Below, piece after piece: positions 33,572-41,613 of a DNA stretch of 64,000 nt (its first letter is position 1; the number at the start of each line of letters is the position of its first letter). Source of the stretch: Salipiger thiooxidans (GTDB taxonomy: Bacteria > Pseudomonadota > Alphaproteobacteria > Rhodobacterales > Rhodobacteraceae); NCBI RefSeq assembly GCF_900102075.1, contig NZ_FNAV01000006.1, positions 62,001 through 126,000 on the forward strand, in the 5' to 3' direction. The notes beneath the pieces were generated by a model. It saw nothing but the letters and a program-made list of their open reading frames with translations. It made no database searches and had not been told where the DNA came from. Both the position numbers and the translations under genes were made by a program.

Positions 33572-33967
33572 TCAGAGCCAGATGATGATCACGGTCAGGA
33601 TCGTCAGCACGACCGACCCGTAAACGCAGATCCAGCCGAGTTTTTCGGCGGTTTCGATGTCAAGCCCCTTGCCCGCGTCGAAGACGAGGTGACGGAGGCC
33701 GCCGAGGTAATGGTACCAGATCGCCCAGAGCGAGCCGAACATGATCAGGTCGCCGACGAAGGAGGTGATCCACCATTCGGCGGTTTCGAAGTATTCGGGT
33801 CCCGCGGCGAGCGCGAGAAGCCACCAGATCAGCAGGAGCACCGCGACCATCATCGCGTTGCCGGTGATCCTGATCATCACAGAGGTCACTGCGGTGAGCT
33901 GGAGGCGGTAGTATTGAACGAACATGAAGGGGGAGAGCGGGCGCTCGATCCGTTTCGCTTCGGCCAT
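33572..33967 (-). CDS. sdhC: Succinate dehydrogenase cytochrome b556 subunit
   Basis: A 131-residue three-helix anchor and heme-binding subunit. Conserved signatures are RPLSPFMFVQYYRLQLTA (quinone-site region), SVMIRITGN and HYLGGLRHLVFDAG with the heme His. First gene of the operon. Confidence 0.95.
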   Translation of the reverse strand: MAEAKRIERPLSPFMFVQYYRLQLTAVTSVMIRITGNAMMVAVLLLIWWLLALAAGPEYFETAEWWITSFVGDLIMFGSLWAIWYHYLGGLRHLVFDAGKGLDIETAEKLGWICVYGSVVLTILTVIIIWL

Positions 33968-34086
33968 GGCTAGTCCTTTCGGTTCCCTTGTGCTCGGGTT
34001 CTAGCGGGTTTTCTCCCCCTCTGTCACCAGACTGCACGCGCAGCGAGCGCGTTTTTTGCCCGCTTTTGGAAAAAATAGGCAGGATA

Positions 34087-34116
34087 TGTGATCACACCCA
34101 AAAAGCTGTGATCACA
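34087..34116. promoter_or_regulatory. Paired TGTGATCACA palindromes upstream of sdhC
   Basis: Two identical perfect 10-base palindromes TGTGATCACA at 34087-34096 and 34107-34116, with starts 20 bases apart, lie 120-149 bases upstream of sdhC. The same pair occurs upstream of sucC. Just beyond is a perfect CGACGC...GCGTCG inverted repeat (34121-34141). Two dimers could bind the same DNA face. The regulator is not identifiable from the window. Confidence 0.75.
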
Positions 34117-34429: not shown

Positions 34430-34477
34430 ATTCTCTTTCACCACTTCGATTGTATTCTCTTTCACCACTTCGATTGT
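34430..34477 (-). repeat. Perfect tandem duplication of a 24-base unit
   Basis: Two identical adjacent 24-base units (34430-34453 and 34454-34477), beginning ATTCTCTTTC and ending TTCGATTGT on the plus strand, 28 bases upstream of the small gene. It may duplicate a promoter or leader element. Confidence 0.95.
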
Positions 34478-40276: not shown

Positions 40277-40307
40277 TGTGATCACAGCCCCAAAACGTGT
40301 GATCACA
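40277..40307. promoter_or_regulatory. Paired TGTGATCACA palindromes upstream of sucC
   Basis: Two perfect TGTGATCACA palindromes at 40277-40286 and 40298-40307, starts 21 bases apart, 113-143 bases upstream of sucC. The arrangement, and even the CCCAAAA-like spacer, match the pair before sdhC. The region also has GCTAACAT (40249-40256). Confidence 0.75.
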
Positions 40308-40419
40308 AAGCGAAAAAATTGCTCGCAATTCGCGGGGTCCGGCAATATTTCGACTGACGCAGGCCGATATGCATGGGTATACCGGCACCGAAATCGCAGC
40401 AAGACGGGAAGATTCTTTC

Positions 40420-41613
40420 ATGAACATCCATGAATATCAGGCGAAGGCGCTTCTGCGCGACTATGGCTGCCCGGTCTCCGACGGCCGTATCGTGCTGACT
40501 GCCAACGACGCCAAGACCGCCGCGGGCGAGCTCGACGGGCCGCTCTGGGTGGTCAAGGCGCAGATCCACGCAGGTGGTCGCGGCAAGGGCTCCTTCAAGG
40601 AATCCGAGGCTGGCGAAAAGGGCGGCGTGCGCCTTGCCAAGTCGGTCGAAGAGGCCGCCGAGGAAGCCAACCGGATGCTCGGCCACACGCTGGTGACGCA
40701 CCAGACCGGTCCGGCAGGCAAGCAGGTCAACCGCATCTACATCGAGGACGGCTCGGACATCACCTCCGAATTCTACCTCGCCCTGCTCGTCGACCGCGTC
40801 ACCTCGCGCGTGTCCATCGTCTGCTCGACCGAGGGCGGCATGGACATCGAGGAAGTGGCAGCCTCGACCCCCGAGAAGATCCTGTCGTTCTCCATCGACC
40901 CCGCCGTCGGCTACCAGGGCTTCCACGGCCGTCGCGTCGCCTTCGCCCTCGGGCTGTCCGGCAAGCAGATCCGCCAGTGCACCAACCTCCTCTCGAACCT
41001 CTACCGGATGTTCGTCGAGAAGGACATGGAGATGCTCGAGATCAACCCGCTGATCGTCACCACCGACGGTGATCTCAAGTGCCTCGACTGCAAGGCCGGC
41101 TTCGACGGCAACGCGCTCTACCGCCACCCCGACATCGTCGGCCTGCGCGACGAGACCGAGGAAGACCCCAAGGAACTCGCCGCCTCGCAGCACGACCTGA
41201 ACTACATCGCGCTCGACGGTGAGATCGGCTGCATGGTGAACGGCGCAGGCCTTGCCATGGCAACCATGGACATCATCAAGCTCTACGGTGCAGAGCCCGC
41301 CAACTTCCTTGACGTGGGCGGCGGCGCAACCAAGGAGAAGGTGACCGAAGCCTTCAAGATCATCACCTCGGACCCGAACGTGAAGGGCATCCTGGTGAAC
41401 ATCTTCGGTGGCATCATGCGCTGCGACGTGATCGCAGAGGGTGTGCTCGCCGCGGTGAAGGAAGTCGGTCTGCAGGTTCCGCTGGTCGTGCGTCTCGAAG
41501 GCACCAACGTGGATCTCGGCAAGGAGATCATCGCGAACTCCGGTCTGAACGTGATCGCCGCCGACAACCTCAGCGATGGCGCCGAGAAGATCGTGAAGGC
41601 CGTGAAGGGCTGA
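40420..41613 (+). CDS. sucC: Succinyl-CoA synthetase beta subunit
   Basis: ADP-forming succinyl-CoA ligase beta chain, 397 residues. The N-terminal ATP-grasp domain has [37 protein letters not shown] and [20 protein letters not shown]. The C-terminal CoA-ligase domain has [25 protein letters not shown] and [15 protein letters not shown]. First gene of the suc unit. A small ORF separates it from sucD. Confidence 0.98.

Follow-up and report, generated by a model that had tools for sequence, protein, structure and literature searches.

Twin palindromes before sdhC and sucC in the Rhodobacteraceae: probable AkgR operators in helical phase with predicted promoters

Which protein reads the paired palindromes that stand before sdhC and sucC in this DNA, and what does it do from there? 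The window (the whole stretch analyzed, 64,000 nucleotides) contains four exact copies of TGTGATCACA, treated here as candidate AkgR boxes without strand. The pair before sdhC comprises a proximal box at 34087..34096 and a distal box at 34107..34116, with starts 20 bases apart, and it recurs before sdhC in relatives; the pair before sucC comprises a distal box at 40277..40286 and a proximal box at 40298..40307, with starts 21 bases apart. These positions and offsets, reported in a first-pass annotation, are confirmed. The same annotation placed the pairs about 115 to 150 bases before the start codons; the pair-to-ATG gaps are 119 bases for sdhC and 112 bases for sucC (ATG at 40420). The open reading frame of sdhC (33572..33967, minus strand) leads an sdhCDA..B run, and its match in relatives precedes sdhD and sdhA. 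The sucC gene (40420..41613, plus strand), identified from its reading frame and from relatives, leads a co-directional sucC-sucD-sucA-sucB-lpd run that is putatively governed by the pair. The reported lack of a perfect copy before mdh or sucA also holds, and no copy with up to two mismatches is found there in the window. The CCCAAAA likeness of the spacers fares worse: the two stretches run in opposite directions relative to sdhC and sucC, and the spacers of relatives share only a loose A/T-rich middle, so a common CCCAAAA spacer was rejected as a feature because it is neither co-oriented nor conserved.

The 5.87-Mb genome has seven exact copies of TGTGATCACA, four of them in the sdhC and sucC pairs, and no copy of the backwards control. 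With a spacer of 5 to 35 bases allowed, the genome contains two exact pairs. Four matches with at most one mismatch are present in the window, compared with 1.03 expected from dinucleotide shuffles; counting near-copies, 6 of 100 shuffles also reach four. At up to two mismatches there are nine matches versus 16.2 expected, and hence no excess of weak copies. A genome search for spacer-11 pairs with at most three mismatches returns the sucC pair alone, the sdhC pair (spacer 10) falling outside the search pattern. The remaining three exact boxes in the genome (L001, L002, and L003) are single, were only inspected, and may be chance copies. We note that the L003 box (L003:1501-1510) is located near the start of another GntR-FCD gene, within the longest reading frame.

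Across relatives, the pair is found beside TCA-cycle genes. The pattern TGTGATCACA-N5..35-TGTGATCACA matches 188 of 295 genomes of the same family, while the backwards control matches none of the 295. All 30 loci fetched from this search have the pair before sucC (27) or sdhC (3), 96 to 190 bases from the start codon as placed by alignment. Named GTDB genomes yield at least 121 pairs in at least 118 stretches, again with a spacer of 5 to 35 allowed; those listed comprise 89 before sucC, 19 before sdhC, one before sucA, two in stretches cut off beside mdh, and 10 elsewhere. The spacing is nearly fixed in the 111 listed pairs that are TCA-linked (11 bases in 102 and 10 bases in nine). The 10 listed non-TCA pairs have spacers of 10, 13, 13, 13, 14, 16, 17, 30, 33, and 35 bases and come from records of other groups, one of which (L072) is titled merely as an alphaproteobacterium. 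Among 385 genomes of the class, the pair occurs in four of five from the same family versus three of the 380 others, where the spacers are 12, 14, and 12 bases; the backwards control matched one genome (G372). The proposal of a dedicated TCA-cycle operator is supported by 30 of 30 family loci and by 109 of the 121 listed GTDB pairs, which precede sucC, sdhC, or sucA. Rather than being absent from relatives or scattered at random with respect to TCA genes, the pair is kept beside them. At L150 the order is mdh, pair, sucA, and sucCD do not lie in between; the pair directly precedes sucA, which indicates that it is tied here to the operon rather than to sucC as such.

Several individual loci deserve mention. 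In the class genomes, the exact pairs outside the family are at L243 (spacer 14), L244 (spacer 12), and L238 (spacer 12). The one at L243 is flanked by a GntR-FCD gene (37% identical) on one side and an aldehyde dehydrogenase gene on the other, and the box may serve related GntR proteins in other pathways. Record L131, titled Nocardioides marinus, has the pair together with family-like sdh, mdh, and suc genes; its Mdh and SucC are 91% and 82% identical to those of the window, and the record is probably contaminated or misnamed. Finally, L275 (G136:C8:47341-47381) is an exact pair from the family with a spacer of 21 bases, approximately one helical turn above the usual value.

The regulator of the pair is most likely AkgR, known from Rhodobacter sphaeroides. 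We take RSP_0981 of that species to be AkgR, as it is reportedly named in the primary mBio 2015 paper, and we take genome G051 to be that of R. sphaeroides 2.4.1. PMC4344238 lists RSP_0981 as a GntR protein with three predicted targets: sucCD (RSP_0967-6), sdh (RSP_0974-6), and the genes for alpha-ketoglutarate dehydrogenase (RSP_0965-62). PMC6365646 terms AkgR a transcriptional activator and gives its box motif as GTGATCAC. This core box is present in the window palindromes, and it is located upstream of sdh and suc genes. The AkgR ortholog of the genome is P0001 (G000:C46:13185-13832, 216 aa), a protein with a GntR and an FCD domain that shares 71-75% identity with its orthologs from Rhodobacter ruber, Defluviimonas, Gemmobacter, and Paracoccus. 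In G051, the order lpd-sucBADC-mdh ... sdhCDAB is followed by a P0001 ortholog (75% identical) no more than 0.8 kb from sdhB. Its site agrees with the place of RSP_0981 by tag order, a match by synteny. Ahead of sdhC the same genome carries the pair in exact form, and ahead of sucC with one mismatch. Of the 385 genomes of the class, all five family members have a full ortholog, and the best match to P0001 outside the family has E = 1e-43 (37% identity). Another candidate for AkgR, a GntR gene close to sdhB in Defluviimonas (L226:3785-4552), was rejected: it is closest to L162 of the present genome (71%), GTGATCAC is absent nearby, and in G051 it is a P0001 ortholog that adjoins sdhB. As a separate observation, G193 has two akgR orthologs in one genome, 83% and 84% identical to P0001.

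Regulator gene and operator are present or absent together, with five exceptions. An akgR ortholog, defined by a cut-off of E < 1e-50 that just admits G033 (1.6e-56) and just excludes G054 (5.6e-49), is detected in 268 of the 295 family genomes. Of these 268, 184 have the exact pair, versus four of the 27 genomes without akgR (Fisher p = 6e-8 with kinship ignored; the genomes are related, and neither counts nor p-values are independent). The four that have the exact pair but no detected akgR (G019, G256, G264, and G273) are 73-93% complete, and the exact pair is absent from all 16 genomes that lack akgR at a completeness of at least 95%. Near-perfect pairs were then sought before sucC only, in a sample of 30 of the 295 genomes in which this gene was located by a SucC search; 29 gave a usable upstream region. 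The akgR-positive sample consisted of 15 hand-picked from the 84 genomes without the exact pair, of which G037 was unusable owing to a weak SucC match; the akgR-negative sample consisted of 15 of the 16 near-complete genomes, with G167 left out. A near-perfect pair (17-19 of 20 matches, spacer 10 or 11) is found in 14 of 14 akgR-positive genomes and in one of 15 akgR-negative genomes. The fifth exception is this last genome, G114, which has a 19-of-20 pair and is called 100% complete, yet is split into 320 contigs. G109, also without akgR, retains a single 9-of-10 box before sucC and no pair.

The box also occurs before akgR itself. Forty orthologs were compared, the 30 best matches and 10 others, and in 34 of them a box with at least 9 of 10 matches starts 9 to 35 bases before the predicted akgR start codon; windows of equal length drawn at random from the same loci have one in 287 of 8000 cases. 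The gene for P0001 has such a box before its own start codon; the six orthologs without one are those of R. ruber, Gemmobacter, G051, and three others. AkgR would probably bind this single box too, limiting its own expression.

Before sdhC, a -35 element (GTGACA, 34022..34027, minus strand) is predicted 59 bases from the pair, with a predicted -10 element (TAGAAC, 33998..34003, minus strand) at 18-base spacing. For R. sphaeroides, PMC7471390 announces a data set of transcription start sites. From relatives, 44 sdhC upstream regions were extracted, and the pair (at least 18 of 20 matches) is found in 41 of them, with a spacer of 11 (35) or 10 (6), and in the other three no pair is found; its presence is selected, because most loci of the sdhC and sucC upstream sets were fetched for the exact pair, but spacing (5-35 allowed) and promoter distance were not selected. 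An exact GTGACA follows the pair in 24 of the 41 regions, at 46-47 (3), 57-59 (16), 68-69 (2), and 78-79 (3) bases. These distances are strongly phased, with a Rayleigh R of 0.91 at a period of 10.5-10.75 as opposed to 0.2-0.3 for the distance from hexamer to ATG. None of 2000 uniform draws reaches the observed value, and 1 of 5000 does so when only distinct offsets are used. With the relaxed motif GTGAC[AT], 36 of the 41 regions have a hexamer and every one falls on the same four rungs (3, 27, 3, and 3); hexamers no more than 40 bases from the start codon, such as one in L080, were dropped from the count, and the motif is not found in the other five. The -35 element predicted in the window is on this ladder. 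In addition, sdhC pairs with a spacer of 10 may lie one base further from the -35 element (3 of 3 at 59 bases versus 2 of 24, p = 0.003), and the sucC pairs do not clearly behave in the same way.

Before sucC, the predicted -35 (CTGACG, 40354..40359, plus strand) is 46 bases from the pair, at a position that matches the promoter profile of the family, and is followed at 18-base spacing by a predicted -10 (TATACC, 40378..40383, plus strand). The profile was trained on 109 upstream regions of common leader length and then slid over all 150; agreement within the training set is partly built in, because the offset was held near 44. A score of at least 6 is attained in 117 of the 150 regions, with the -35 at the main position of about 46 bases in 94, one turn closer (about 35) in 17, and elsewhere in six, while 33 score too low for a promoter to be placed. 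The 41 regions outside the training set were scanned freely; that score is attained in 26, all but one of which (25) have the -35 at about 35 (17) or about 46 (8) bases. Among 12 sucC leaders of at least 126 bases, seven have the promoter at one of the two positions, one has it elsewhere, and four score too low. The extra length of these leaders thus falls mostly on the downstream side of the promoter. A quick SucC tree covering 77 of the 111 classed rows, of which 65 are far and 12 near, requires at least eight changes in the promoter-position state. We think it likely that the pair has moved by whole helical turns several times at two TCA promoters, and never by half turns where the sdhC promoter can be placed.

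We consider it highly probable that the twin palindromes are AkgR operators from which two dimers activate sdh and suc from upstream of the promoters. One AkgR dimer would bind each palindrome, 20-21 base pairs apart, upstream of the sdhC and sucC promoters; 20-21 base pairs correspond to two helical turns, which would place both dimers on the same face of the DNA, where they may bind cooperatively. Bound AkgR would then activate transcription of sdhCDAB and sucCDAB-lpd by direct contact with RNA polymerase, presumably in response to a sensed metabolite, and we propose that this contact is why the distance from pair to -35 steps by about one helical turn. The two-turn, one-face arrangement suggested in the first-pass annotation is supported by the spacers of 10 or 11 and by the ladder of promoter distances. 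An RNA hairpin or attenuator was rejected because of the place of the pair, which is upstream of the predicted promoters.

Repressors are common among GntR proteins, and AkgR could instead repress sdh and suc from the same operator, for example by forming a tetramer. At the akgR start codon, the single box does sit in a repressing position. At sdhC and sucC, however, wherever the promoter is on the ladder, the pair ends at least 35 bases before the -35 and does not overlap the predicted promoter, which makes repression less likely; the conserved phase fits polymerase contact, and AkgR is called a transcriptional activator in PMC6365646. We regard repression as improbable. A still smaller chance is given to one or more other GntR paralogs, and not the P0001 protein, reading the pair. 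There are 42 FCD-type matches in the genome, any of which might read the box, and one of them, at C33, is a paralog with 37% identity; a GntR gene of equal identity (37%) from outside the family adjoins a similar pair with spacer 14. Against this, presence of the P0001 ortholog tracks the pair over 295 genomes, the ortholog is syntenic with sdhB in G051, and a box with at least nine matches is not found in the 8-kb stretch around the C33 paralog.

The likeness of the palindromes to half-sites of GntR and CRP proteins had been remarked upon before the regulator was named. The GntR part stands, AkgR being a member of the GntR/FCD family; the CRP part is a partial resemblance. In CRP sites, TGTGA and TCACA are separated by six bases, but here the half-sites, which do resemble those of CRP (TGTGA...TCACA), have no bases between them, and TGTGA-N6-TCACA does not describe the boxes. 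Furthermore, according to PMC4344238, no CRP-analogous proteins are predicted in R. sphaeroides. The same paper predicts regulation of mdh and sdh by CceR (RSP_1663), but the RSP_1663 motif given there, [A/G/T]GTT-N6-8-AAC[A/C/T], is unlike the boxes when compared by eye, as is the published TCTTATGTCTTATATAAGACATAAGA-like palindrome of the HutC-type SdhR. With motifs that differ in this way, a CRP/FNR-type, CceR, or SdhR site was rejected and can be given almost no credence.

Activation by AkgR from an upstream pair has a parallel in class I activation by CRP, where the activator is bound upstream of the promoter at a distance that varies by whole helical turns. The upstream activator and the whole-turn variation are common to both; the protein family and the site differ, and here two tandem boxes are located further upstream. 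The closest known system is the AkgR (RSP_0981) regulon of R. sphaeroides, which has the same GTGATCAC box, the same sdh, sucCD, and alpha-ketoglutarate dehydrogenase targets, and an orthologous GntR/FCD regulator. It differs in that akgR is next to sdhB there and unlinked here (contig C46). Regulators of the PS417_07240 type, associated with the deoxyribonate cluster of Pseudomonas, are also gntR-like, 32% identical to AkgR, and share the GTGATCAC palindrome, according to PMC6365646. One palindrome, at -47 to -40 from the regulator start codon, is described there for a different pathway, and no twin palindrome is found in the passages on it. Nor did we find the twin spacing or the ladder of promoter distances in the AkgR literature as far as it was accessible, short of the primary mBio 2015 paper, which may describe part of them. 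The operator most likely belongs to the known AkgR system, to which the twin geometry seen across the family and the ladder of distances add features that, this primary paper aside, are new as far as we have checked.

These results carry the AkgR box before the sdh and suc genes beyond a single model species to most of the sampled family, name a likely regulator, and supply a search pattern for AkgR targets. They also amount to a natural experiment on the distance and rotation that a tandem GntR activator tolerates relative to its promoter: if the positions have shifted by whole turns during evolution, the genomes themselves measure the rotational constraint on activation by tandem GntR dimers. 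A dedicated tandem-dimer activation geometry would, if true, be unusual for the FadR/FCD GntR family. One further element is seen in the window, upstream of sdhC beyond the pair, where a 24-base unit, ATTCTCTTTCACCACTTCGATTGT, occurs twice in tandem at 34430-34477.
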